This document shows, piece after piece, positions 36,509-62,974 of a stretch of 64,000 nt of DNA (its first letter is position 1; each line of letters begins with the position of its first letter). Source of the DNA: Herbidospora cretacea. Its GTDB lineage: Bacteria > Actinomycetota > Actinomycetes > Streptosporangiales > Streptosporangiaceae. The notes beneath the pieces were generated by a model. That model was not told where the DNA came from and did no database searches. It saw nothing but the letters and a program-made list of their open reading frames with translations. The stretch lies in NCBI RefSeq assembly GCF_001570605.1, contig NZ_BBXG01000003.1, positions 1 through 64,000 on the forward strand, given 5' to 3'. Position numbers and translations under genes: made by a program.

Positions 36509-37229
36509 GCACCACGTCGAGCCTGCCCGGGTGGAGCTCGACGGCGTGACCCAGCCTGGTCAGCAGGTGGGCGAGCTCCCCGGCGTCCTTCGCCGTGGCG
36601 GGGCTCTCCACCAGCGACCGGGCGATCAGCCCCCGGGTGTGCTTGGCCATGTGGCTGACGACGGTCCGGTCCTTGGTGAGCACCCTGACCGCGACCGTCT
36701 CCCTCCTGGGCTTCCAGGCCGCCGCGTAGGTGGCCGACCTCAGGTCGACCACGAGCCCACCGGCCTGGTCGAGGAGCGGGCCCAGGCTCGGCTTCCAGAA
36801 CGCGGCCAGCCCGCCGACCGGCGGAAGCCGCACCCCCATCGACAGCCGGTAGGGCGGAACCCGGTCGCCCAGCCTCAGCGCGCCCCAGAGGCCCGAGAAG
36901 ACGACGACCCTCTTCGTGGCGCGCGCCTTGGCCTTGGCGTCGAGCGTGGCGAGGCTGAGGGCGTCGTAGAGCACCCCCGTGTAGAGCTCGGAGACCTTGA
37001 CGGTCCGGGCGGTGCGCAGCCCCCGGTTGCGGCTGATCTCCCCAGCGAGCCCCGGAGGCAGGCCGAGGACCTGGTGGGCCTGCTCGGGGCTGTGACAGAG
37101 CTCGACGAGCGCGTCGAGGACCTTCTCGCGGGGCGAGGTGAGCTCGGGGAAGCTCAGGGACTCCAGATCGACGGGACGACCCCGGCCCGAGGCCGCCTTG
37201 CCCTCGGAGGGCGGCAGGAGGATCAGCAC
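36498..37229 (-). CDS. yaaA: YaaA/DUF328 family peroxide stress protein
   Basis: Family member of normal length (243 aa). Characteristic residues are M-L-I-L-L-P-P-S-E-G-K at the N-terminus, Y-T-G-V-L-Y-D-A-L near 82, F-S-G-L-W-G-A-L-R-L near 114, D-R-V-P-P-Y-R-L-S-M and W-K-P near 144. In E. coli YaaA lowers free intracellular iron during hydrogen peroxide stress and the fold binds DNA; that this holds in actinomycetes is inference. It overlaps the 3' end of the convergent helical-repeat gene by 11 bp. No OxyR-type box is recognisable upstream. Confidence 0.88.
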   Translation of the reverse strand: MLILLPPSEGKAASGRGRPVDLESLSFPELTSPREKVLDALVELCHSPEQAHQVLGLPPGLAGEISRNRGLRTARTVKVSELYTGVLYDALSLATLDAKAKARATKRVVVFSGLWGALRLGDRVPPYRLSMGVRLPPVGGLAAFWKPSLGPLLDQAGGLVVDLRSATYAAAWKPRRETVAVRVLTKDRTVVSHMAKHTRGLIARSLVESPATAKDAGELAHLLTRLGHAVELHPGRLDVVLSS

Positions 37230-37512
37230 CTCCCCAGCCTAGGGCGAAACCCCAGGCCAACAGCACGCCGTCACCGGGGCCACAGGAGCACACGGCCAGC
37301 GTAGGTTCCAGTCCGTTGCGGATCGGCGGCGCGGGCCTGATTCCACATCAGGGACAATCTGCGGCCGTCGGGGAGGTTGGTCGGCGGCGTTCGCGGACGT
37401 TTCAGGTCAGCGGCGGGTCTATGGCTGAGCTGACGGCGTTGCGGGGCGGGGCAGGAGCGGGTGGTTGGCGCTGGTTGCGGGCGGCGCGGGGGCGGTGGTC
37501 AGGGCCGGGGTG
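37230..37512. other. Non-coding stretch, nothing recognised
   Basis: Between the yaaA-like start and the third copy of the recurrent motif. Short open frames exist but encode Arg/Gly-rich sequence typical of non-coding high-G+C DNA, and none has a ribosome site. No tRNA or hairpin with a T-run found. Confidence 0.5.
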
Positions 37513-37533
37513 GGCGGAGCCGTAACGGAGAAA
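37513..37533 (+). repeat. Copy 3 of the recurrent intergenic motif
   Basis: Bases 37513-37529 are identical to 12588-12604, and 37517-37533 are identical to the minus strand of 944-960. This copy abuts the hairpin that follows the DUF7455 gene, so it could be part of an extended terminator or a promoter reading antisense into that gene. Confidence 0.5.
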
Positions 37534-37537
37534 TGAG

Positions 37538-37572
37538 AACGGCGTGATCAGGGGATGCCTGATCACGCCGTT
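37538..37572 (-). terminator. Terminator hairpin downstream of the DUF7455 gene
   Basis: Perfect 15-bp inverted repeat (arms 37538-37552 and 37558-37572, 5-base loop) placed 20 bases past the stop. On the minus strand it is followed by CTCATTTCTCC, a moderately T-rich tract. Confidence 0.75.
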
Positions 37573-37591
37573 GTCGGTGTCGGTGGCCGGA

Positions 37592-37822
37592 TCACCGCTC
37601 GTCGGGAGCGGCGGATGCGGATGTCGAACTGAGTCGGGCTGATTCGTCCTGGATCTCAGCGCCCTTGTCGCGCAATGCGGCCACGTGCTGTCGGCCATGG
37701 TGTGCGCAGAACAGGAGTTCAGCGCCTACCGGAAGAATCGCGCGAATATAGGCCTGAGCGCCGCATCGGTCGCAGCGGTCTAGGGCGGTCAGCGGCTTGG
37801 TGGGGGCGAGAGCTCCAGTCAC
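37592..37822 (-). CDS. DUF7455-type small zinc-binding protein
   Basis: Small protein (76 aa) conserved next to parE/rpoD in many actinomycetes. The core reads D-R-C-D-R-C-G-A-Q-A-Y and L-L-F-C-A-H-H-G-R-Q-H, giving a C-x2-C ... C-x-H-H zinc ribbon-like site. The last ~25 residues are a Ser/Ala-rich tail. It starts at GTG 37822 with AAAGGCG a few bases upstream. Role unknown; the size and ribbon suggest a nucleic-acid or polymerase accessory protein, which is inference. Confidence 0.85.
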   Translation of the reverse strand: MTGALAPTKPLTALDRCDRCGAQAYIRAILPVGAELLFCAHHGRQHVAALRDKGAEIQDESARLSSTSASAAPDER

Positions 37823-38003
37823 GTATCGCCTTTCGGGTCACCCCGTTGACCGGGGATGTTGGCGTCACAGTCACTTGGGACAACATCTAACCGGATGAGG
37901 GCGTTCCCAATCACCTCCTGACTACGCCGAGAGCGGAATGTTCCGAAAGGTGACGTGGATCACACCGCAGGTAACGAGAAGCCCTCGACAGCTGGCAAGC
38001 TGG

Positions 38004-38033
38004 TAGGCGTAAAACCACGCCTAGCGCTAAGCT
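38004..38033 (+). promoter_or_regulatory. Inverted repeat plus -10-like box upstream of parE
   Basis: TAGGCGT-N6-ACGCCTA (38004-38023) is a perfect 7-bp inverted repeat, directly followed by TAAGCT (38028-38033), a TANNNT -10 candidate. With initiation near 38040 the leader would be about 30 bases. The repeat would then cover the -35 and spacer, as an operator would. Confidence 0.4.
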
Positions 38034-38070
38034 GCGTACGCGTGTTCGACTGTTGAGCGTGGGAGCTGGA

Positions 38071-40137
38071 GTGACGGTAGCGGAGACGGGTTACACGGCT
38101 CGTCATCTGTCGGTTCTTGAGGGTCTCGAAGCCGTCCGCAAGCGCCCAGGCATGTACATCGGGTCGACCGACAGCCGCGGGCTCATGCACTGCCTGTGGG
38201 AGATCGTCGACAACTGCGTCGACGAGGCGCTGGCCGGATACTGCTCCCTGATCGAGGTCGAGCTCCATCCCGACGGTTCGGTCGAGGTGCGCGACGACGG
38301 GCGGGGCATCCCGGTCGACGTCGAGCCCAAGAGCGGGCTCGCGGGTGTCGAGCTGGTCTACACCAAGCTCCACGCCGGCGGGAAGTTCGGCGGCGGGTCC
38401 TACGGTGCCTCCGGCGGTCTCCACGGCGTGGGCGCCTCGGTGGTCAACGCGCTGTCGTCCCGGCTCGACGTCGAGGTCGACCGCGACGGGCGGGTCCACG
38501 AGATCAGTTTCCGGCGCGGGGTGCCCGGCGTCTTCGAGGGCGAGGGGCCCTCGGCCAAGTTCAAGAAGAAGTCCGGCCTGCGCGACGGCGGCCCGCTCGG
38601 GGCCCGGGTCACGGGCACGCGGGTGCGGTTCTGGGCCGACCGCCAGATCTTCCTGCCCGAGGCGGAGGTCTCGCTCGACGAGATCCACGTGCGGCTGCGG
38701 CAGACCGCCTTCCTGGTGCCCGGCCTGACCCTGTCGGTGCGCGACAGCCGCACCGAGGAGGTCTCCGAGGAGACCTTCCGGTTCGACGGCGGCATCAGCG
38801 AGTTCACCGAGTTCCTGGCGCGCGACGAGGCCGTCTGCGACGTGCTGCGCATGCAGGGGCAGGGCCACTTCCACGAGACCGTGCCGGTGCTCGACGAGCA
38901 GGGCCACATGACGCCGACCAAGGTCGAGCGCGAGATGGTCGTCGACGTCGCGGTGCGCTGGGGCAAGGGCTACGACTCGACCGTCCGGTCGTTCGTCAAC
39001 GTGATCGCCACGCCCAAGGGCGGCACCCACGTGCTCGGGTTCGAGCGCGCGCTGGTGCGGACGATGAACGAATTACTGCGTGAGTCCCGGCTGCTCAGGG
39101 CCAACGACGACGGCGTGACCAAAGAGGACATCCTCGAGGGTCTCACCGGCGTGGTGACCGTGCGCGTGGCCGAACCGCAGTTCGAGGGGCAGACCAAGGA
39201 GGTGCTCGGCACCTCCGCGGCGACCCGCATCGTCTCGACGGTCGTCTCGCGGGACCTCCGCGAGATCTTCACCAACCCGCCGCGCGGGGCCAAGCAGCAG
39301 CTCAGGGCCGTTCTCGAGAAGATCGTCGCGGCGGCCAAGGCGCGCATCGCGGCCCGCGAGCACCGCGACAACCAGCGGCGCAAGACCGCGCTGGAGAGCT
39401 CGGCGCTGCCGGCCAAGCTGGTCGACTGCCGCAGCGACGGCGTCGACCGCAGCGAGCTGTTCATCGTCGAGGGTGACTCGGCGCTGGGCACCGCCAAGCT
39501 GGCCCGCGACTCCGAGTTCCAGGCGCTGCTGCCCATCCGGGGCAAGATCCTCAACGTGCAGAAGGCGTCCGTGAGCGACATGCTCAAGAACACCGAGTGC
39601 GCGGCGATCATCCAGGTCGTGGGGGCGGGCTCGGGCCGGACGTTCGACATCGAGCAGGCGCGCTACGGGAAGATCATTCTCATGGCCGACGCCGACGTCG
39701 ACGGGGCGCACATCCGGTGTCTGCTGCTGACGCTGTTCCACCGCTACATGCGTCCGATGGTCGAGGCCGGGCGGGTCTTCGCCGCCGTGCCGCCGCTCCA
39801 CCGGGTCGAGCTGACCAATCCCGGGCGGGGGCAGGAGAAGTACATCTACTGCTACTCCGACGCCGAGCTCCACAAGGTGCTGGCGGGGCTCCGCAAGCGG
39901 AACAAGAAGTGGAAGGAACCGCCCCAGCGCTACAAGGGCCTGGGCGAGATGGACGCCGACCAGCTGGCCGAGACGACCATGGACCCCCGCCACCGCGTGC
40001 TGCGCCGCATCAGGATCGAGGACGTGGAAGAGGGCGAGCGGATCTTCGACCTGCTCATGGGGAGCGACGTGGCGCCGCGCCGGGAGTTCATCGTGAGCTC
40101 GGCCTCGGACATCGACCGCGACGCCATCGACGCCTGA
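38071..40137 (+). CDS. parE: Type IIA topoisomerase subunit B (topoisomerase IV ParE type)
   Basis: ATPase subunit (688 aa) of a decatenating type II topoisomerase; pairs with the ParC-type subunit encoded at 44745-47195. GHKL ATPase: W-E-I-V-D-N-C-V-D-E-A with Asn49 as Mg ligand, D-D-G-R-G-I-P, and G-G-L-H-G-V-G-A-S-V-V-N-A-L. TOPRIM: V-E-G-D-S-A-L-G and A-D-A-D-V-D-G-A-H-I. C-terminal docking motif R-Y-K-G-L-G-E-M-D. Length and the separate location from replication-origin genes favour ParE over GyrB. GTG 38071 is chosen because GGGAGCTGGA lies just upstream; an in-frame TTG at 38053 is less likely. No terminator is visible after the stop; a 62-bp repeat array begins about 100 bases on. Confidence 0.93.
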   Translation: MTVAETGYTARHLSVLEGLEAVRKRPGMYIGSTDSRGLMHCLWEIVDNCVDEALAGYCSLIEVELHPDGSVEVRDDGRGIPVDVEPKSGLAGVELVYTKLHAGGKFGGGSYGASGGLHGVGASVVNALSSRLDVEVDRDGRVHEISFRRGVPGVFEGEGPSAKFKKKSGLRDGGPLGARVTGTRVRFWADRQIFLPEAEVSLDEIHVRLRQTAFLVPGLTLSVRDSRTEEVSEETFRFDGGISEFTEFLARDEAVCDVLRMQGQGHFHETVPVLDEQGHMTPTKVEREMVVDVAVRWGKGYDSTVRSFVNVIATPKGGTHVLGFERALVRTMNELLRESRLLRANDDGVTKEDILEGLTGVVTVRVAEPQFEGQTKEVLGTSAATRIVSTVVSRDLREIFTNPPRGAKQQLRAVLEKIVAAAKARIAAREHRDNQRRKTALESSALPAKLVDCRSDGVDRSELFIVEGDSALGTAKLARDSEFQALLPIRGKILNVQKASVSDMLKNTECAAIIQVVGAGSGRTFDIEQARYGKIILMADADVDGAHIRCLLLTLFHRYMRPMVEAGRVFAAVPPLHRVELTNPGRGQEKYIYCYSDAELHKVLAGLRKRNKKWKEPPQRYKGLGEMDADQLAETTMDPRHRVLRRIRIEDVEEGERIFDLLMGSDVAPRREFIVSSASDIDRDAIDA

Positions 40138-40235
40138 CGGGGGTTTCGCCCGCTGACGGGGTTGTTTGGGGCCCTGAGATGGGCTCGGCGGCTTGTGGAC
40201 GGGTTGAGGCTGCCTGGGGCGTTTGGAATTTCTCA

Positions 40236-41130
40236 GTGGCGGCCTCGGCCAGCTGGGAGCGCGCCTGGTGGGCAGTGCGATCGAACCTCATGCCGGCCTG
40301 GCCCGTGATCGGCCGGACGGTGTCCGGGCAGCCTCATCGCACGTCGTGACGCTCCGGCCCACGATCGGATGGATCGGGCAGCGCGATCGACGCCATGCCG
40401 CCTCGGCCTGGAGGACCGGCTGGACCGTGCCTGGTGGCGGACGGCGTGACCGACATCACGCGGTGCAGTCCCGCTATTGGATGGATCGTGCTGGCGCATG
40501 GACATGATGCGGCCATGGCCCGCGGTCGGGTAGACCGCGTCCGATAGTGGGCGGGGTGACCGACGTCATGCCGCCTCGGCTCGGGGAATGGCCTGGACCG
40601 CGTCTAGCGGCGGGTAGCGCGATGGACGTGATGCCGCCTTGGCCCGTGATCGGCTGAATCGTGCCTGGTGGTGGGCAGGCGCGATGGACGTGATGCCGCC
40701 TTGGCCCGTGATCGGCTGAATCGTGCCTGGTGGTGGGCAGGCGCGATGGACGTGATGCCGCCTTGGCCCGTGATCGGCTGGGCCGTGTCTGGTGGCGGGG
40801 GTGATCGACGTCATGCGCCTGGCTCGGGACCGCGTTGGTGGCGGGTAGCGCGACGGGCATGTGCCGCTCTGGGCCCGTGATCGGCTGGACCGCCTCTGAT
40901 GGTGGGCGGGGTGACCGACGTGACGCCGCCTCGGCTCGGGGGATCGGCTGGACCCCATCTGGTGGCGAGTAGTGCGACGGACATGATGCCGCCCTGGCCC
41001 GTGGTCGGCTGGACCATGCCTGGTGGCGGGTGATGTGACTGACATCATGCCCCTCGGCCCGGGGATCGGCTGGACCGGGCCAGGTGATGGGCGGCGCGAC
41101 CGACATGTCGGTCCGGCCCGTGATCGGCTT
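40236..41130. repeat. Degenerate ~62-bp minisatellite, about 15 units, two alternating unit types
   Basis: About 0.9 kb of tandem units recognised by the anchor (A)TGCCGCC followed by GGCCCGTGATCGGCTGGA. Anchors fall near 40290, 40347, 40395, 40458, 40507, 40568, 40631, 40693, 40755, 40813, 40859, 40922, 40986, 41047 and 41105, mostly 58-64 bases apart with a few short units (46-49). Bases 40621-40682 and 40683-40744 are identical; other units diverge. Units with GGCCCGTGATCGGCTG tend to alternate with units having CTCGGCTCGGGG, giving a ~124-bp higher-order period. Because 62 is not divisible by 3, long open frames across it on both strands shift their reading every unit and are not credible genes. 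It lies in the 1.37-kb gap between parE and the GNAT gene. Confidence 0.9.
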
Positions 41131-41455
41131 CAGCCGGGTTTGGCAGACGACCGGCGGTTGGTGCCCGCCGGTATCCCGATGTCCCGTAGCGCTGACCGCG
41201 CACAGGGCCTTGCTGCGCGGTGCCACGTCGGCGGCGGCACTCTATCGACAGCGCTGGCGGCTGCTTGCTGGAGGCCTGGCTGGGGGCCGCTTCGGGTTAT
41301 GGCTGATCGCGATCACCATGCAGCGATCTGAGTGTTGTCGTGCCCATGGGATTGCATGTCGGTGGCGGCAGGCAGTTCATGGGGTGGCGTCGTCCGTGCC
41401 TCGGGCTTGCTGGTCGCGGCCACGGCCGTGATGGGGTCGGCCGGTTGGTTCGGCC
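41131..41455. other. Non-coding stretch, nothing recognised
   Basis: Follows the minisatellite without its repeat pattern. Open frames here give Arg/Trp/Gly-rich sequence with no family match I can see and no ribosome sites. It might contain a decayed gene, but no motif supports this. Confidence 0.4.
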
Positions 41456-41499
41456 AGGGGCGCGCCGTGTCACGAAATTTCGGGACACGGCGCGCCCCT
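41456..41499 (-). terminator. Long hairpin downstream of the GNAT gene
   Basis: Perfect 16-bp arms (41456-41471 and 41484-41499) enclose a 12-base loop that is largely itself palindromic (CGAAATTTCG). It starts 10 bases past the stop of the minus-strand acetyltransferase gene. No T-run follows, so it may work as a T-less actinobacterial terminator or mRNA stabiliser. Confidence 0.7.
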
Positions 41500-41508
41500 C
41501 CCTCAGGG

Positions 41509-42258
41509 TCAGGAGAACTTGCGGAAGTGGTTGGTCTGGCCGATGGGGGTGAAGCCCTGGCGGGCGTAGAAGTCCTTGGGCCAGTCGTTCTGGTCGGCCT
41601 CCAGGAAGAGGGTCAGGTCGCCGGCCCGGTGGATCGCCTCGGTCACGACCGCGCGGGCGTGGCCTTTCCGCTGGTGGGACGGGTCGGTGATCAGGTCGTC
41701 GAACTGGGCCATGCCGGAGGCCCGGTGGACGTAGAGGTCGCCGTGGCAGACGATCGTCTTCCCGTCGCGGACCGCCAGGAAGGTGATGTCGTAGCCCTCC
41801 TGGACGAGGGTGGCCCGGCGATCGGTGAGCTGGTCGAGCTCCTCGGCGGTGAGTTGCGGGTATTCGGCGGCCCAGGCGGCCCGTACGACCTCGTGGAGGT
41901 CCTCCATGGTCACGGCCACCACCTGGGGTGCGGGAGGCGGGACAGGGCCCTGGTGGAGCATCAGCACGTTGGTCTCGTGGCCGTAGCCCGCCTCGGTCAG
42001 CGCCGCCGCGGCGGCTTTCGCGGTCGGCTCGTGGTCGATCTCCACCAGGCGGTGGCCGACGTCGCCCAGCGCCCGGTCGGCCAGGGCGAGGATGTCGCGC
42101 GGGTCGGCCGGGCCGGTGATCACGACCTTGTTGTGGTGGTGTGATGAGGCGTACCGGAAATTGCGCACGGTGAACCCGAAAGGGTGCTCCTGGACGTCGT
42201 CGGCCTGGGAGCGGATGTAGTCCTCCTTGAAGCGGAGGACGCGGGCGAGTTCGCTCAT
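41509..42258 (-). CDS. GNAT-family N-acetyltransferase with N-terminal extra domain
   Basis: Protein of 249 aa. The C-terminal half is a GNAT domain: V-A-V-T-M-E-D-L-H-E-V-V, F-L-A-V-R-D-G-K, F-D-D-L-I-T-D-P-S-H-Q-R-K-G-H-A (acetyl-CoA P-loop of form Q-R-K-G-H-A) and F-Y-A-R-Q-G-F-T-P-I. The N-terminal ~120 residues are a divergent second domain, giving the double-GNAT-like size seen in many actinomycete proteins. ATG 42258 overlaps the carbonic anhydrase stop (ATGA), so both are made from one mRNA. Substrate unknown. Confidence 0.85.
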   Translation of the reverse strand: MSELARVLRFKEDYIRSQADDVQEHPFGFTVRNFRYASSHHHNKVVITGPADPRDILALADRALGDVGHRLVEIDHEPTAKAAAAALTEAGYGHETNVLMLHQGPVPPPAPQVVAVTMEDLHEVVRAAWAAEYPQLTAEELDQLTDRRATLVQEGYDITFLAVRDGKTIVCHGDLYVHRASGMAQFDDLITDPSHQRKGHARAVVTEAIHRAGDLTLFLEADQNDWPKDFYARQGFTPIGQTNHFRKFS

Positions 42259-42773
42259 GCGGCGGCGTTCCGGCGGAGTTCCTCTATCGGCGTGAGCTTG
42301 CCGGACCGCACGTCGTAGATCGCGCCGCCGACGGAGACCACGCCGTCGAGGAACGGGCTGGTGCGGATCCGGATGAGGTCGTGCCGGAGGGCGGCGTCCT
42401 GGTCGGGGACGGTGTGGAAGTCGAGGCTGCGGGTGTCGACCCCCTGCGCCCTCGCCAGGTCGTGGATGTCGTCGTCGGTGACCTTCGTCATGCCGCAGTC
42501 GGTGTGGGGCATCACCAGGACGCGGTTGACGCCGAGGACGAACACGGCGACGACGAGCGTGCGCAGCACGTCGTCGGTCACGCGGGCCCCCGCGTTGCGG
42601 AGGATCTTGGCGTCGCCGGGTTTGAGGCCCAGCAGGCCGAGAGGGTCGATGCGGGAGTCCATACACGTGACGACGGCCAGGCCCCGGGCGGCCGTGCCGG
42701 TCAGGCCGGAACCCGTGAACGTGGCGGAATAGGCCTCATTGGCGGCCAGGAGGTCATCGAAGGCACCGTTCAT
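42255..42773 (-). CDS. Beta-class carbonic anhydrase
   Basis: Cytosolic zinc enzyme interconverting CO2 and bicarbonate (172 aa, normal for the short beta class). Zinc ligands and active-site pair are visible: Cys37-x-Asp39-x-Arg41 (T-C-M-D-S-R) and His90-x2-Cys93 (M-P-H-T-D-C-G). R-N-A-G-A at 59-63 is the usual following motif. ATG 42773. First gene of a two-gene operon with a GNAT acetyltransferase. Supply of bicarbonate for carboxylases is the likely role; some short actinobacterial members have never been assayed. Confidence 0.92.
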   Translation of the reverse strand: MNGAFDDLLAANEAYSATFTGSGLTGTAARGLAVVTCMDSRIDPLGLLGLKPGDAKILRNAGARVTDDVLRTLVVAVFVLGVNRVLVMPHTDCGMTKVTDDDIHDLARAQGVDTRSLDFHTVPDQDAALRHDLIRIRTSPFLDGVVSVGGAIYDVRSGKLTPIEELRRNAAA

Positions 42774-42876
42774 GTACCGAATGTTCCCGCAAACCGCTTT
42801 CGTGACCTTTCCCGGGGTCTACCAATGCGGTGAACCACCTCCGAACTCGTGTCACCCTAGGTAATTATCCGTGACG

Positions 42877-42882
42877 TAAAGT
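42877..42882 (+). promoter_or_regulatory. Putative -10 box (TAAAGT)
   Basis: TANNNT-type box 28 bases upstream of the ATG at 42911, leaving a leader with GAGGAG. The -35 region is not convincing. Confidence 0.3.
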
Positions 42883-42910
42883 CGCCGACCGTTTGAGGAG
42901 ACCCGAGAAC

Positions 42911-43198
42911 ATGAGCACCACCGCGCCCCTCTCCGACCATCTGCGCGCCCACGCCCGCCGTCGCCTCGACCGCGTGGAGCCGTCGGACGAGGGCCGCAAC
43001 GCCCGCCTGGCCCTCGCCCTGATCGACGCGGCCTGCTACGTGGACACGCTGCCGGAGGACGATCCGGTGATCGTCGCGCTGCGTGAGACGGGGATGCTGA
43101 AGCCCGACGGCTTCGAGCCGGGCGACCGGGAGGCCCAGCTGCTGGCGGAGTGGTCCGGGGGAGACCCGGCCCAGTTGCTGGCCGCGCTGGCGCGATAG
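42911..43198 (+). CDS. Small conserved acidic protein of unknown function
   Basis: Protein of 95 aa, helical, without membrane segment. Sequence features: H-A-R-R-R-L-D-R-V near 15, A-L-A-L-I-D-A-A-C-Y-V-D-T-L near 35, and an acidic C-terminal half with E-P-G-D-R-E-A-Q-L-L-A-E-W. ATG 42911 is supported by GAGGAG about 10 bases upstream. It diverges from the carbonic anhydrase operon. No family recognised; the codon pattern and clean ribosome site argue it is real. Confidence 0.6.
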   Translation: MSTTAPLSDHLRAHARRRLDRVEPSDEGRNARLALALIDAACYVDTLPEDDPVIVALRETGMLKPDGFEPGDREAQLLAEWSGGDPAQLLAALAR

Positions 43199-43249
43199 GA
43201 CGCGGGCGGGCGGGGCAGGTCGGGGGATATTGCCTGGATTATCCAGCGA

Positions 43250-43273
43250 CACCGGTATAACGTCTTCACCGGT
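43250..43273 (+). promoter_or_regulatory. Putative promoter: TATAAC box between direct CACCGGT repeats
   Basis: CACCGGT occurs at 43250-43256 and 43267-43273, 17 bases apart, flanking TATAAC (43256-43261). TTGCCT (43230-43235) could be a -35 but the 20-base spacer is long. It would serve the VOC gene at 43303. Confidence 0.35.
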
Positions 43274-43302
43274 TACCTCATACGGGAAAGTGAGTGACGT
43301 CC

Positions 43303-43665
43303 ATGGCCATCGCCACCCTCCATTCGTTCGTGTTCGACTGCCCCGACCCCCGCGCCCTCGCCGAGTTCTACAAGGAGCTCCTCGGCTGGGAGATCGTGCG
43401 CGACGACACCGACTGGGTCGTGATCGGCGACGGCGGCCCGGTGCAGATGGCGTTCCAGTACGCCGCCGACTACGTGCCCCCCGTCTGGCCGCAGCCCGAC
43501 CACCCCCAGCAGGCCCACCTCGACGTCACCGTCGCCGACCTCGCCGAGGCGGGGGAGCGGGTCACGGCGCTGGGGGCGGTCAAGCACCACCACCAGCCGG
43601 GCGACGAGAAGGGCTTCGTCGTCTATCTCGACCCGGCGGGCCACCCGTTCTGCCTCTGCGATTGA
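43303..43665 (+). CDS. VOC family protein (glyoxalase/bleomycin-resistance fold)
   Basis: Single-domain metal-dependent-fold protein (120 aa). It begins T-L-H-S-F-V-F-D-C-P-D-P-R-A-L-A-E-F-Y, the standard VOC opening with a metal-ligand His, and ends with G-F-V-V-Y-L-D-P-A-G-H-P-F-C-L-C, the typical final strand. Dimers of this type often bind small hydrophobic compounds or metals; no substrate can be named. ATG 43303 is chosen; GTG 43294 in frame would add three residues and lies nearer to GGGAAAG. It ends 32 bases before the ArsR-type gene, so it may share its surroundings but probably not its promoter. Confidence 0.85.
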   Translation: MAIATLHSFVFDCPDPRALAEFYKELLGWEIVRDDTDWVVIGDGGPVQMAFQYAADYVPPVWPQPDHPQQAHLDVTVADLAEAGERVTALGAVKHHHQPGDEKGFVVYLDPAGHPFCLCD

Positions 43666-43698
43666 CAGCGCATATTCCTTAAGGGGAATATAGCGAGG
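43662..43698 (+). promoter_or_regulatory. TTGACA promoter with overlapping palindromic operator, leaderless
   Basis: TTGACA (43662-43667) is a perfect -35; GAATAT (43686-43691) lies 18 bases on as -10. Initiation about 7 bases later falls on the GTG start codon at 43698, so the mRNA is predicted leaderless. ATATTCC-N6-GGAATAT (43672-43691), a perfect inverted repeat, covers spacer and -10, an ideal position for repression by the ArsR-type protein it precedes. The -35 overlaps the VOC gene's stop codon. Confidence 0.7.
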
Positions 43699-44000
43699 TG
43701 GACGTGTTCGTCGTGCTCGCGGAGCCGACCCGGCGCCGCATCCTCGACCGGTTGCGCCGGTCGGAGAGCAGCGTCGGGGAGCTCGTGCGGGAGCTGTCGA
43801 TGGGCCAGCCGGCCGTCTCGAAGCATCTCAAGGTGCTCCGGGAGGCCGGGCTGGTCTCCTCGCGCACGGCCGCGCAGCAGCGCATCTACCGCATCGAGCC
43901 CCGTCCGCTGGCGGCACTCGACGAGTGGCTGGCGCCCTACCGCCGCCTGTGGGACGACCGTCTCGACGCCCTCGAAGCCCACCTCGACCAGCAGGAGTAG
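43698..44000 (+). CDS. ArsR-family winged-helix repressor
   Basis: DNA-binding protein of 100 aa, M-D-V-F-V-V-L-A-E-P-T-R-R-R-I-L-D-R-L at the N-terminus and recognition region S-M-G-Q-P-A-V-S-K-H-L-K-V-L-R-E-A-G-L. There are no Cys metal ligands (no C-V-C motif), so it belongs to the metal-independent ArsR group commonly coupled to an SRPBCC partner. GTG 43698 sits at the predicted transcription start. The ATG of the SRPBCC gene is 3 bases after its stop. It probably represses its own operon through the palindrome at 43672-43691. Confidence 0.92.
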   Translation: MDVFVVLAEPTRRRILDRLRRSESSVGELVRELSMGQPAVSKHLKVLREAGLVSSRTAAQQRIYRIEPRPLAALDEWLAPYRRLWDDRLDALEAHLDQQE

Positions 44001-44003
44001 GCC

Positions 44004-44495
44004 ATGGAACTCGCAGACGTGTCGGCTCATCCGGCAGGCGACGGCCGCTGGACCCTCGTGTTCACCCGCGACCTGTCCCACCCGCCGGAGAAGGTCTGGG
44101 ACGCCCTCACCGAACCGGGCCGACTCAAGGAGTGGGCCCCGTTCGAGCCCAGCCGCGACCTCGGCGAGCCGGGCGAGGCGACCCTGGTCATGGACGGCGC
44201 CGGCACCGACGAGACCGTCACCAAGGCCGACCGTCCCCATCTGCTCGAATACACGTGGGGCGGCGATCTCCTGCGCTGGGAGCTGGAGCCCACGGAGACC
44301 GGCACCCGCCTCCGCCTCTCCCACACCATGCCGGGCCCGGAGTGGGCGGCCCGCAACGCGGCCGGCTGGCACGTCTGCCTCGACACCGCCGACCTGCTCC
44401 TCGCGGGCACCCCACAGGGCCGTGTCGTGGGCGAGGACGCCCTGAAGCACGACTGGCAGGACCTCCGCGACGCCTACACGGCCAAGCTTTCCTGA
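44004..44495 (+). CDS. SRPBCC (AHSA1-like) ligand-binding domain protein
   Basis: Protein of 163 aa with the START/Bet v1-like fold of the AHSA1 group: F-T-R-D-L-S-H-P-P-E-K-V-W-D-A-L-T-E-P-G-R at the N-terminus, E-Y-T-W-G-G-D-L-L-R-W-E-L near 80 and W-H-V-C-L-D-T-A-D near the C-terminal helix. These proteins bind hydrophobic small molecules; when coupled to an ArsR repressor they may act as sensor or detoxifier. ATG 44004, 3 bases after the repressor stop, so translation is coupled. The downstream 80 bases lack features before the 26-bp repeat. Confidence 0.88.
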   Translation: MELADVSAHPAGDGRWTLVFTRDLSHPPEKVWDALTEPGRLKEWAPFEPSRDLGEPGEATLVMDGAGTDETVTKADRPHLLEYTWGGDLLRWELEPTETGTRLRLSHTMPGPEWAARNAAGWHVCLDTADLLLAGTPQGRVVGEDALKHDWQDLRDAYTAKLS

Positions 44496-44575
44496 CCAGA
44501 CGTCCACGGCGGCCCTTCCGAGGCCGGAACGGCTGTTCCGGCCCCAAAGGTCATGCGACCCGGCGCAGAGAGCCA

Positions 44576-44715
44576 GAGGCCCCGGTGTCGGCCTGAACCC
44601 GAGGCCCCGGTGTCGGCCTTGAACCCGAGGCCCCGGTGTCGGCCTTGAACCCGAGGCCCCGAAATCCGCCTTGAACCCGAGGCCCCGGTCGTCCGCCTGA
44701 ACCCGAGGCCCCGGT
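44576..44715. repeat. 26-bp tandem repeat, six units, each copying one terminator arm
   Basis: Units beginning GAGGCCCCGG start at 44576, 44601, 44627, 44653, 44679 and 44705, 25-26 bases apart, consensus GAGGCCCCGGTGTCGGCCTT plus GAACCC. Two units vary at the centre. The unit contains the left arm of the terminator at 44705-44739, so several alternative pairings with the single right arm are possible in RNA. Confidence 0.93.
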
Positions 44716-44739
44716 GTCCGACTAAGGGACCGGGGCCTC
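44705..44739 (-). terminator. Terminator hairpin downstream of parC
   Basis: Perfect 11-bp arms GAGGCCCCGGT (44705-44715) and ACCGGGGCCTC (44729-44739) with a 13-base loop, 5 bases past the parC stop on the minus strand. No T-run. The outer arm is repeated five further times in the flanking 26-bp array. Confidence 0.7.
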
Positions 44740-44744
44740 AGACG

Positions 44745-47195
44745 TTAGAGGGCGCCCCCGATGGCTGAGACCGTGTGGGTCAGCCTGACGCCCGAACCGT
44801 CGCGGCGGCCGATCTCGTCGGGGAGGGGCACCGGCTTGCCGACCGACGAGACCGCCTTGGCGGGGCTCGGCCCGGCCCAGGCCAGCAGGAGCACGTCTTC
44901 GCCCTTGAGGAACCGCTGGGCCCGGACGCCGCCCGTCGCGCGGCCCTTGGCGGGGAACTCGGCGTAGTCGGAGATCTTGCCGCCGCCGATCTGGGTGCCC
45001 GGGAGGGCGGTGGACGACCCGGCGATCGTCACCACGCACGACTCGCGGCCCGGGTCGATCGCGCCGAACCAGATGACCTTGGCCCCGGGCTCGACCCGGA
45101 TGCCGGCCATGCCGCCGGCCGGGCGGCCCTGCGGGCGGACGTTGGTCGCGGAGTAGCGCAGCAGCTGGGCGTCGGAGGTGATGAACACCAGGTCGTGGTC
45201 TTCGGAGGTGAGCTCCACGGCCCCGACCACGGTGTCGCCCTCGCGAAGGGTGATGACCTCGAACTCGTCGCGGTTGGCCGGATAGTCGGGCACGACCCGC
45301 TTCACCACGCCCTGTTCGGTGCCGAGCGCCAGGCCCGGCCCGTCGGGATCGAGCGAGCCGATGCCCACGACCGACTCGTCGGCCGCCAGCGAGACGTATT
45401 CGGCCACCGGGTGGCCGCCCGCCAGCGACGGCGGGTTGGCCGACGCGGGCAGGGTCGGCAGGTCGACGACCGACACCCGGATCATGCGGCCGAGCGAGGT
45501 CACCACCCCGACCTCGCCCCGGACCGTCGACCGCACCGCCGAGACCAGCACGTCGTGGACGGTCCGGTCGCCCGAGGCGGGCAGCGGGGAGGCGTCGGAG
45601 GTGCGGGCCAGCAGGCCGGTGGAGGAGAGCAGCACCAGGCACGGGTCGTCGGCGACCTCCAGCGGCACCGGGGCGAGCGTGGCCACCCCGCCCTCCAGCA
45701 GGAGGGTGCGCCGGGGGGTGCCGTAGGTCTTGGCGACCTGGGCCAGCTCGTCGGAGACGACCTTGCGGAGCTTCAGGTCGGAGCCGAGGATCTCGCTGAG
45801 CTCCGCGATCTCGCGGGTCAGGGTCTCCTTCTCCTTGTCGAGCTCCAGGTTGTCGTAGCGGGTCAGGCGGCGCAGGGGGGTGTCGAGGATGTAGTTGGCC
45901 TGGATCTCGCTCAGCGAGAAGGTCTCCATCAGGCCGGTGCGGGCCGCCGCCGAGTCTTCGGAGGTCCGGATGACCCGGATGACCTCGTCGATGTTGAGCA
46001 GGGCGACGATCAGGCCCTCGACCAGGTGGAGCCGCTCCTCGCGCTTGCGCCGCCGGTGCAGCGAGCGGCGGCGGACGACGTCGATGCGGTGGTCGACGTA
46101 CACCGAGAGGAGTTCGCGCAGACCCAGGGTGCGCGGCTGGCCGTCGACCAGAGCCACGTTGTTGATGCCGAACGTCTCCTCCATCGGGGTCAGCCGATAG
46201 AGCTCCTCCAGCACCGCCTCGGGGTTGAAGCCGTTCTTGATCTCGATGACCAGCTGGAGGCCCTTGTGCCGGTCGGTGAGGTCTTTCAGGTCGGCGATGC
46301 CGGTCAGCTTCTTGGACGTCACCAGTTCCTTGATCTTGGTGACCACCCGCTCGGGGCCGACGTTGTAGGGCAGCGCGGTGACGACCAGGCCCTTGCGGCG
46401 CGGCGTGACGTTCTCGACCGTCGCGGTGGCCCGCATCTTGAAGGTGCCCCGGCCGGTGCGGTAGGCGTCGTGGATGCCGCCCAGGCCGTTGATGTAGCCG
46501 CCGGTCGGCAGGTCGGGGCCCGGGATGAAGTTCATCAGGTCGTCGAGCGTCGCGTCGGGGTGCTTGAGCAGGTGCCGCGCGGCGGCCACGACCTCGACCA
46601 GGTTGTGGGGCGCCATGTTGGTCGCCATGCCGACCGCGATGCCGGTCGAGCCGTTGACCAGCAGGTTGGGGAACGCCGACCCCAGGACCGAGGGCTCGGT
46701 CTCCTGGCCGTCGTAGTTGGGCTTGAAGTCGACCGTGTCCTCGTCGATCGACTGCACCATCAGCATCGCCGCGTCGGACAGGCGGGCCTCGGTGTAGCGC
46801 ATGGCGGCCGGCAGGTCGTCGGGCGAACCGAAGTTGCCGTGGCCGTCGACCAGCGGCAGCCGCATCGAGAACGGCTGGGCCTGGCGGACCAGCGCGTCGT
46901 AGATCGCGCCGTCGCCGTGGGGGTGGAGCTTGCCCATGACCTCGCCCACGACGCGGGACGACTTCACGTGGCCCCGGTCGGGACGCAGCCCCATCTCGTT
47001 CATCGAGTAGAGGATGCGGCGCTGCACGGGCTTGAGCCCGTCGCGGGCGTCGGGGAGGGCGCGCTGGTAGATGACGCTGTAGGCGTATTCCAGGAAGCTG
47101 GTGCGCATCTCCGCGGACACGTCGATGTCGACGATCCGCTCCTCGAAGTCCTCGTCGGGCGGGGGGCTGGTCGTTCGTCGGGCCATGTCGAACAT
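44745..47195 (-). CDS. parC: Type IIA topoisomerase subunit A (topoisomerase IV ParC type)
   Basis: DNA-cleaving subunit (816 aa) partnering ParE. The winged-helix/tower core has [16 protein letters not shown] near 46, [10 protein letters not shown] at 91-100 and catalytic Tyr134 in [11 protein letters not shown]-terminal beta-pinwheel follows (blades from about 500) without a recognisable GyrA box (Q-R-R-G-G-K-G), favouring ParC over GyrA. At the position of E. coli GyrA Ser83 this protein has Gly96, while the Asp87 equivalent (Asp100) is kept. ATG 47195 is chosen as GGTGGGGA lies 8 bases upstream; ATG 47186 and GTG 47216 are alternatives. It converges with parE across seven other genes. Confidence 0.93.
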
Positions 47196-60556: not shown

Positions 60557-62974
60557 TCAGCCGGTGCCGAAGCAGGCGAAGCCCGGCACACTTGTGGCGA
60601 CCGCCGCGCCCGCCAGCGCCGCAGCGGGGCCCTGCCCCAGGGCCAGCAGGCGATGGAACTCCGCCATCAGTCTCGCCGCCTCGTCGTCCCTGACCGGGAC
60701 GATGCCCGCGACCACGGCCCGTGCGCCGCGATCGAGGAAGGCCCCGGCCAGCCCGAACGCCGCTCCGTCGGCGGGGGCCGAGGCCATGCCCGCGTCGCAG
60801 GCGGACAGGACCACCAACGGCGGCACCCGCGCCAGCCGGAAGAACTCGTGCACCAGGAGCGGGCCGTCGTCCAGCAGGATGCTCGACATCATCGGCCGCC
60901 GCCCGGAGAAGATGCCGTGGGCGGCGATGTGCACGACCCCGGCACGCCCCAGCGCCTCCAGGAGCGCGTCCCGCGTGGCGGGCACCCGCTCTCCTTTCTC
61001 GTGTACGCAGACCACCGCCGCCACCTCGTCTTCCGCATGGGCCAGATCGGGCCCGGCCAGAGCGATCACGGGCCCGTCGATCTCCCGGTCCACCACGGCC
61101 ATCGCGGCCGAGGGGGCCACCGAGACCGGCCGCCCGCACAGCGACGGCAGCAGCGACCAGGGCAGCGAGTGCAGGGCGGCCGTGGGCACCACGCTGACCG
61201 CTCTCCGCGGCAGGTCGAGGGGCCGGATCAGAACGTCGTCGAGGGTGGTCAGCTCCCGGAGCAGGCCGGGGGAGAGTCCTTCCTCGCCTTCGGGCCGGGT
61301 GTCGCGGAGGTTGCGCCGCCGCAGGTTGTAGCGGATCCGCACCATCGCCTCGGTGACCCACGACAGCGAACCCAGTCCATGGAGCGACACTCGATCACCG
61401 TGGGCGACGACGGCATGGAGGGCGTCTTGGCCGCGTACGAGCTCGACCAGCACCTCAGGCCGCGCCGCCACCGGCTCCGCACCGCTGACCAGCGCCCGCC
61501 ACCGCTCCGACCACAGCAGCACCTCCTCGGCACTCCCCGAGCCGACGGCCAACTCCAGCCCAAGCATCGCGATCTCCTCCGCCACCCGAGAAACCCGCCA
61601 CCGCTCATCAGCGAGCCGCCTCCCCACTGCTACAGCACCCTGACCTGCACGAGGAGAGGTGGTAACTGGCTGACCCGCTCGGGCCCCAGGCCTCGCTGTG
61701 GGCTGCTCAGCTTCGGCTCTGGGTGTCGGTGTGGGTTGGTCGGCTTCGGTCCAGGGCGTCGATATGGATTGGTGAGCTTCGGGCTGGGATGTCGATGTCG
61801 GCTTGCTGGCTTCGGCCTCGGGCCTCAACGTGGGCTGGTCGGCTTGGGGCTCGGGTGCGGATGTGAGCTGGTTGGCTTCGGTCCCGGGTGTCGAGGTGGG
61901 CTGGTCGGCTTGGGGCTCAGGTGTGGATGTGGGCTGGTTGGCTTCGGTCTCGGGCCTCGCTGTGGGCTGGTTGGCCTCGATCCTGGGTGTCGAAAGGGGT
62001 TGGTCGGCTCCCACCTTGGGCGTCGATGTCGGCTTGTCTTGGGAGAGGGCACTTGTATGGACGCCTATCCGTGCCTCCGCCGTGAGCCCGGCCCAAGCGT
62101 GAATCGGCTCTGCGGCGACGCTGTCGGGTCGGTCATCTCCGAAGAGCGGCATCACGGTTGGACATTCCGTGTCGAATGGCTCATGCGAGGGTTCCGCCTG
62201 TCGTTGGCCATCCGACTCGGAACCCGTCGAAGCTAAGCGCGACATTTCCTGAAGTGACGCGGAGAACCCCTGTTGGGCTACTTCGAGGGCTTCTGCGAGG
62301 TCGCCCCTAGCCCACCTCTCCAACGCCTCCGCATGGAGCCGCGACCCGGTGCACTCGGACCCGTTCCGAACCTGCTCCAGGATCGGCGCGACCTTCGCAA
62401 GGTCTACCGTCGCCTGCCTTCGGGCCGCAAGCAGATCAGCAGGTCCCCGGCCGGATCGGCGCACGACCGTCGACGCCACGAAGAGCCGCAGTTCGTCGGC
62501 CTCCGAGCGCCAGCCCGACCCCTCCAGCTCATCCGCCCCCGCCGCGCACTCGCCGAGGAGCACGTCGTCCGGCCTCGTCTCGGTCTGGGCCACCCGTGCC
62601 CGGAGCATAACGTCGAGGGCTCTCCGCTCCCACCCCGCGCGTCCCAGCCGCCGGAATTCCCTGAGGGCCGTCGACGCCGTGTCCTCGGCCCGGCGAACGT
62701 CGCCGGTCAGCAGTTCGACCGTCGCGAGCAGGAGCCGGGCGGATGCCGTCGGGCCGGGCGAGGTCAGGTCGGGCAGGGCGAGTTCCAGGAGCATCCGCGC
62801 CTCACCGGGCAGGCGTGCTCCGACGAGTGCCGAGGCGAAGGCGGCGCGGGTGAGGGCCAGACGGTCCGGGGAGTCGTACAGGCGATCCTCGGCCGCGAGA
62901 TGGACGTCGAACGCCGCCAGGATGTCGGCACGCCGGGCCGCGGCGAACGGGCCGTAGGGCTCAGGCGCGGACAC
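60557..62974 (-). CDS. CHAT-domain (caspase HetF-associated) protein with N-terminal helical repeats and an 11-residue repeat spacer
   Basis: Caspase-like protease candidate (805 aa). Residues about 15-245 are TPR-like helical repeats. Residues 311-442 are about twelve degenerate 11-residue repeats (E-A-D-Q-P-T-S-T-P type). The C-terminal CHAT domain (about 500-800) has the catalytic His686 in V-H-I-A-A-H-G and Cys726 in V-L-S-A-C-D-A-G, and ends F-A-C-F-G-T-G as usual for the family. It begins at GTG 62974, overlapping the preceding 153-aa gene by 14 bases, in an operon with an ECF-type sigma factor upstream. CHAT proteins act as proteases in separase-like, gasdermin and CRISPR type III-E systems; the actinobacterial sigma-linked group is uncharacterised to my knowledge. 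Confidence 0.9.
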   Translation of the reverse strand: MSAPEPYGPFAAARRADILAAFDVHLAAEDRLYDSPDRLALTRAAFASALVGARLPGEARMLLELALPDLTSPGPTASARLLLATVELLTGDVRRAEDTASTALREFRRLGRAGWERRALDVMLRARVAQTETRPDDVLLGECAAGADELEGSGWRSEADELRLFVASTVVRRSGRGPADLLAARRQATVDLAKVAPILEQVRNGSECTGSRLHAEALERWARGDLAEALEVAQQGFSASLQEMSRLASTGSESDGQRQAEPSHEPFDTECPTVMPLFGDDRPDSVAAEPIHAWAGLTAEARIGVHTSALSQDKPTSTPKVGADQPLSTPRIEANQPTARPETEANQPTSTPEPQADQPTSTPGTEANQLTSAPEPQADQPTLRPEAEASKPTSTSQPEAHQSISTPWTEADQPTPTPRAEAEQPTARPGARAGQPVTTSPRAGQGAVAVGRRLADERWRVSRVAEEIAMLGLELAVGSGSAEEVLLWSERWRALVSGAEPVAARPEVLVELVRGQDALHAVVAHGDRVSLHGLGSLSWVTEAMVRIRYNLRRRNLRDTRPEGEEGLSPGLLRELTTLDDVLIRPLDLPRRAVSVVPTAALHSLPWSLLPSLCGRPVSVAPSAAMAVVDREIDGPVIALAGPDLAHAEDEVAAVVCVHEKGERVPATRDALLEALGRAGVVHIAAHGIFSGRRPMMSSILLDDGPLLVHEFFRLARVPPLVVLSACDAGMASAPADGAAFGLAGAFLDRGARAVVAGIVPVRDDEAARLMAEFHRLLALGQGPAAALAGAAVATSVPGFACFGTG
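61649..62044. repeat. 33-bp in-frame repeat array in the CHAT gene
   Basis: About twelve degenerate 33-bp units encode 11-residue blocks such as E-A-N-Q-P-T-S-T-P-E-P and Q-A-D-Q-P-T-S-T-P-G-T (residues 311-442). The frame is kept throughout. It makes a Pro/Thr/Ser-rich flexible linker between sensor-like and protease domains. Confidence 0.93.

Follow-up and report, generated by a model that had tools for sequence, protein, structure and literature searches.

A 62-bp tandem array between parE and a convergent GNAT gene

The window, as we call the whole 64,000-nucleotide stretch of DNA analysed, belongs to a high-G+C actinomycete genome in which the topoisomerase gene parE lies 5' of a tandem repeat array and a GNAT gene converges on it from the far side. 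The features of the locus are as follows.

38053-40137, + strand: parE, topoisomerase IV subunit B (Pfam DNA_gyraseB, Toprim and HATPase_c; start codon uncertain)
40138-41508, no strand: convergent non-coding gap of 1371 bp (codon-position G+C; congener comparison)
40275-41145, + strand: 62-bp minisatellite of ~15 direct units, types A and B (Tandem Repeats Finder (TRF), wrap-around alignment, unit identities)
40617-40780, + strand: youngest part of the array, in which 102 bp agree fully at lag 62 (an identical pair of 62-bp units, then the greater part of another)
41456-41499, no strand: palindrome with 22-bp arms between the array and the GNAT gene, probable shared terminator (fold z -5.9 for 41440-41515)
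41509-42264, - strand: GNAT acetyltransferase gene (Pfam; start uncertain; orthologue 74-78% identical in six congeners)
42255-42773, - strand: carbonic anhydrase gene (Pfam Pro_CA)

The last 199 aa of ParE are 98-99% identical in the six congeners. Identities of 85-87% to the ParE proteins from Nonomuraea, Streptosporangium, Microbispora and Sphaerisporangium make the Streptosporangiaceae the most likely family of the genome.

TRF found periods of 61-62 bp at 40617-40799 (score 331) and 40827-41107 (score 236), together with longer periods of 107, 124 and 231 bp with a best score of 558; the top score among 500 dinucleotide shuffles of 40138-41508 was 72. Wrap-around profile alignment produced 22 rows, of which the 7 outside 40275-41145, apparently extended by chance, were discarded to leave 15 usable units for the count. 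This confirms an earlier note on this DNA, which had described ~15 units of ~62 bp over ~0.9 kb. The 62-bp array is real and is an ordinary repeat array, with head-to-tail units beyond chance and a unit length inside the ~10-100 bp range of minisatellites. At ~0.87 kb when joined, it is longer than any single TRF piece among the 49 arrays considered below, the largest of which comes from another genome and measures 381 bp. G+C by codon position is flat in the array (0.70/0.72/0.70, vs 0.69/0.44/0.95 in parE) and the unit of 62 bp is not a multiple of 3, indicating, as had been proposed, that this is not a coding repeat.

Units 40617-40678 and 40679-40740 are identical, the lag-62 identity running from 40617; this is the pair that the earlier note placed at 40621 and 40683, in another phase. 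The remaining unit pairs share 55-92% identity, and this graded divergence with one identical pair upholds the description of a non-coding minisatellite that is both old and recently active.

The column linkage underlying types A and B is greater than chance (P = 0.0075). The 11 units (of 15) from 40494 onward have the order A B A A A B A B A B A, which is strictly alternating once the three neighbouring A units are counted as a single recent triplication; the four units before them have the order A B B A, which does not alternate. A runs test for alternation gave P = 0.033 with the triplication collapsed to one unit and 0.099 uncollapsed. Identity of whole units was not greater at lag 2 than at lag 1 (P = 0.64 over the 15 units and 0.22 after collapsing), and the comparison of even with odd lags gave P = 0.34, or 0.03 collapsed. 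The proposed alternation of two types with a ~124-bp super-period is thus confined to the last 11 of the 15 units, and its statistical support is modest. We read the super-period as the spread of a dimer through part of the array, with later duplications of single units and of larger blocks (TRF period 231).

Distribution in the genome and in relatives

The array occurs at one place in the 8.28-Mb genome. Six weak matches at E <= 0.01 lie elsewhere in it (E 1.5e-4 to 0.0064), five of them inside 7-12-kb ORFs of a single contig and the sixth on contig 8. Four of those five ORFs show strong codon-position G+C (third position 0.96-0.97) and the fifth a weaker signal; two of the ORFs were checked and contain polyketide-synthase domains. 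Dispersed relatives of the unit in this genome were considered and rejected, the matches being weak and mostly in large ORFs.

All six sampled congeners lack the array and keep the gene order parE-GNAT-carbonic anhydrase; their parE-GNAT gap measures 145-316 bp vs 1371 bp here, and TRF reported nothing in it. Over 5 kb per congener TRF listed nothing beyond four short repeats, of period 9-15 and no more than 2.5 copies, which came from two of the genomes, and matches to the array, one or two per congener, reached at most 41.9 bits and all lay elsewhere. BLASTN of the six congener gaps against our gap aligned the gene ends (best E 1.6e-5), with no other match below E 0.04; derivation of the unit from the ancestral gap was rejected. 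In all four loci taken from a neighbouring genus (g28; L160-L163) the GNAT gene had no match, and only 9-19 bp separate the alignment of parE from that of carbonic anhydrase.

A DNA search in which at most 8 candidates per genome were scored found matches at E <= 0.001 (41.9-47.3 bits) in only 9 of 59 relatives; among these candidates, everything outside our locus, in this genome and in the 59 relatives, was weak. Related genomes had been named as the place to look for the consensus, downstream of parE and elsewhere: the array is absent 3' of parE in 6/6 congeners, and only weak matches turned up elsewhere. With one genome compared per species, the array appears from these sequences to be species-specific, present here and absent from the sampled close relatives.

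Arrays in the family set are more frequent in convergent gaps

We counted arrays in a family set of 60 genomes, 20 kb around parE in each (two pieces were shorter), with genes called by a simple home-made codon-usage model trained on our own contig. Arrays were TRF hits of period at least 15, at least 2.5 copies and a score of at least 80 that lay mostly outside called genes, and gaps were at least 20 bp long. Treating related genomes as independent, arrays were present in 21/177 convergent, 16/363 tandem and 1/219 divergent gaps (Fisher P = 3e-7 for convergent vs divergent and 0.002 for convergent vs tandem). Smaller samples showed a bias in the same direction though weaker: our own contig (464 kb) had arrays in 2/43 convergent, 1/170 tandem (probably coding) and 1/70 divergent gaps, 400 kb of a congener in 2/26, 5/154 and 2/53, the two pooled in 4/69, 6/324 and 3/123, and a named-locus set without its parE gaps in 3/57, 8/233 and 2/68, respectively. 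By these counts our genome is not exceptionally rich in repeats. Units differ between genomes: 49 arrays, our own and the congener loci included, gave no more than two cross-genome similarities at E <= 1e-4.

A gene-free gap of 1.37 kb, for which the earlier note saw no other explanation, can be accounted for by its kind: convergent gaps of this family contain their own arrays fairly often. The pattern, rich in convergent and poor in divergent gaps, suggests where high-G+C actinomycete genomes tolerate repeat growth and offers a yardstick by which to judge such arrays, pending a count over annotated whole genomes.

Arrays behind parE and control genes

A first count gave arrays in 11/73 gaps behind parE and in 13/358 others. 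After merging and the removal of 3 duplicates, which left 137 distinct loci, 18/122 gaps 3' of parE carried arrays (convergent 11/56, tandem 7/66), compared with 39/767 other non-divergent gaps (convergent 16/189, tandem 23/578) and 3/282 divergent ones. The odds ratio of parE against other non-divergent gaps, stratified by orientation, was 2.7 (P = 0.0017), and the excess was kept in a regression with gap length and a locus bootstrap (log odds 1.0, 0.43-1.57). Within orientation it was not significant in the 60-locus set alone (P = 0.26, 0.42).

In 30 of the 60 genomes, arrays lay behind parE in 4/27, parC in 5/28, rho in 1/30, eno in 1/27, guaB in 0/22 and recA in 10/25 cases. These counts set aside gaps shorter than 20 bp (1 recA, 2 parC, 3 eno, 8 guaB), three parE loci without a called gap of 20 bp and four recA genes running off the locus, and they include six recA array cases and one parC case in which no next gene was called within the flank. 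The arrays flanking recA are likely to be uncalled coding DNA, since their periods are nearly all multiples of 3 and the next gene is uncalled in those six cases. Many of these genomes have parE within a few kb of parC, and no comparable array lies at either flank in any of the six congeners.

One reading of these numbers is that, across actinomycetes, unrelated minisatellites arise again and again in the 3' flanks of the topoisomerase IV genes, parE and perhaps also parC, where convergent transcription might, for example, build supercoils or stall forks. We regard this as unlikely. The excess behind parE is modest and is common to parC and possibly recA; because the counts are so uneven, we do not claim a parE effect.

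Other repeats in the window and in related genomes

A second non-coding array (44576-44718, 26 bp x 5.5) occupies the convergent gap behind parC and is absent in 6/6 congeners, whose 5-kb stretches reach the parC end. Its unit matches one arm of the apparent parC terminator hairpin, giving several arms for a single partner (fold z -3.3). As a general rule, seeding from a terminator arm was rejected: complementarity to the flank reached P <= 0.05 in 2/27 convergent, 1/21 tandem and 1/1 divergent arrays, and the two TRF pieces of the parE array gave P = 0.54 and 0.82.

Two further sets of repeats in the window are probably coding. The 33/66-bp array at 61685-62038, whose period is divisible by 3, lies in an 805-aa ORF (60557-62974, - strand), probably as a coding repeat ahead of its C-terminal CHAT domain; the codon-position signal there is weak, and the gene model left this ORF out. 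Repeats of 12, 51 and 96 bp, all multiples of 3, lie at 21440-21848 and 22382-22535 in an 817-aa BTAD/AAA ORF (20874-23327, - strand). Elsewhere in the same genome (G000), the stretches of contig 1 taken from ~170-262 kb (L035-L038) contain 7-12-kb ORFs, two of which were tested and have modular polyketide-synthase domains. In 4 of 30 genomes (G101, G146, G152 and G105; loci L246-L249), the match to the recA model stops after the initial 201-202 model positions, inside an open frame of 749-798 aa, which suggests a putative intein in recA.

A neutral minisatellite as the preferred explanation

The array is very probably a neutral, species-specific minisatellite that has grown where it does little harm. 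A ~62-bp stretch in the parE-GNAT gap would have been duplicated as a seed, then spread through part of the array as an A-B dimer of ~124 bp and later re-expanded by copying of single A units. The duplication history is recorded in the sequence; the seed event, the engine, which would be replication slippage or unequal recombination, and the neutrality we infer. The array may persist because a convergent gap consists of two gene ends and has no promoter at risk, so that a change in length would cost little, as array positions across the family suggest. Consistent with a neutral origin are the graded unit divergence, the single genomic site, the lack of an RNA-fold signal and the absence from 6/6 congeners; the ~2.7-fold over-representation behind parE, with orientation and gap length allowed for, is not predicted by plain neutrality. 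No function of its own is required for the array, and neutrality here means that no sign of a function was seen: nothing in the sequence points to topoisomerase binding or another special role.

Alternatively, parE transcripts might extend through the array and so carry a long 3' untranslated tail that tunes mRNA stability or termination. Read-through is plausible, as there is no strong hairpin just 3' of parE (fold z -1.05) and the strongest fold in the gap is the palindrome at 41456-41499, predicted to be probably a shared terminator. The earlier remark that no terminator separates parE from the array thus stands directly behind the gene and needs the addition of a very strong hairpin at the far end of the gap; U-tract terminators and sigma-70-type promoters were searched for in 40000-41700 and none was found. 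Against such a tail, RNA of the full array is no more stably folded than its shuffles (z +0.41, 20 shuffles), nor are three stretches of 122-124 nt on the + strand (z -0.88 to +0.81) or one of these on the - strand (-0.25), and six congeners have parE without the array. We therefore consider an untranslated tail distinctly improbable.

The earlier note had also raised, as speculation, a loading site for a topoisomerase or nucleoid protein working like the BIMEs of E. coli, a role that we would judge very improbable. The array is indeed extragenic, repeated and behind a topoisomerase gene, and it contains 14 GATC sites in 889 bp vs 6.3 per 889 bp windowwide, a surplus that follows from repeating one unit. 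Its units are direct and lack both a palindrome and alternating orientation: the longest exact hairpin arm of the consensus is 4 bp (93.5% of shuffles do as well, P = 0.935), there is no inverted copy of the whole unit, and besides the terminator palindrome only four inverted pairs of 13-14 nt were found. The array also sits at a single locus in one species with 6/6 congeners lacking it, and genes for topoisomerase subunits need not adjoin the sites that their products bind. These results leave the idea of a topoisomerase site unsupported. Strict G-quadruplex motifs are missing from both strands, and a search for DnaA-box, parS and FtsK-type motifs returned none.

Least probable of all, to the point of being nearly negligible, is an origin from a decayed gene, a mobile element or a CRISPR array: although a 250-aa ORF covers part of the array on the - strand and a 62-bp period is close to those of some CRISPRs, there is no codon-position G+C signal, the three tested ORFs of the gap have no Pfam match at E <= 0.001, 37000-45000 has no Rfam match at gathering threshold, the window has no tRNA, the flanks are syntenic, and conservation is even along the unit (28-bp sliding means 0.81-0.88) rather than divided into a conserved repeat and unrelated spacers.

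Comparison with known repeat systems

Our literature search found no paper on intergenic tandem repeats downstream of parE and none on tandem repeats in Streptosporangiaceae. The array belongs to a known kind, the non-coding minisatellite; taken alone it is one more of these, at most a typing marker. REPs, as described in PMC2817692, are imperfect palindromes usually present in more than 100 copies per genome, with alternating orientation within BIMEs, and BIME-2 strongly binds gyrase. The array resembles them in being an extragenic repeat and differs in the palindrome, alternating orientation and many-copy features, none of which it has. The tandem repeats of Borgs (PMC9879509) are a parallel only for fast and independent array birth. 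The MIRUs of Mycobacterium tuberculosis are minisatellites, mostly intergenic, that change at ~2.7e-3 per locus per year according to PMC3635867; our units are likewise direct, tandem and intergenic as in MIRU/VNTR loci, whereas MIRUs occupy many loci per genome and vary between strains, and the array here is a single locus compared in one genome per species. In the survey of prokaryotic satellites by Subirana and Messeguer (2019; PMC6749651), satellites are unique, unrelated and scattered, with 4.2 per Mb in Streptomyces coelicolor and 36 long-repeat satellites in M. ruminantium, at least half of them judged non-coding by unit length. The parts of that survey consulted contain no analysis by gene orientation; our array is likewise unique and unrelated to others.
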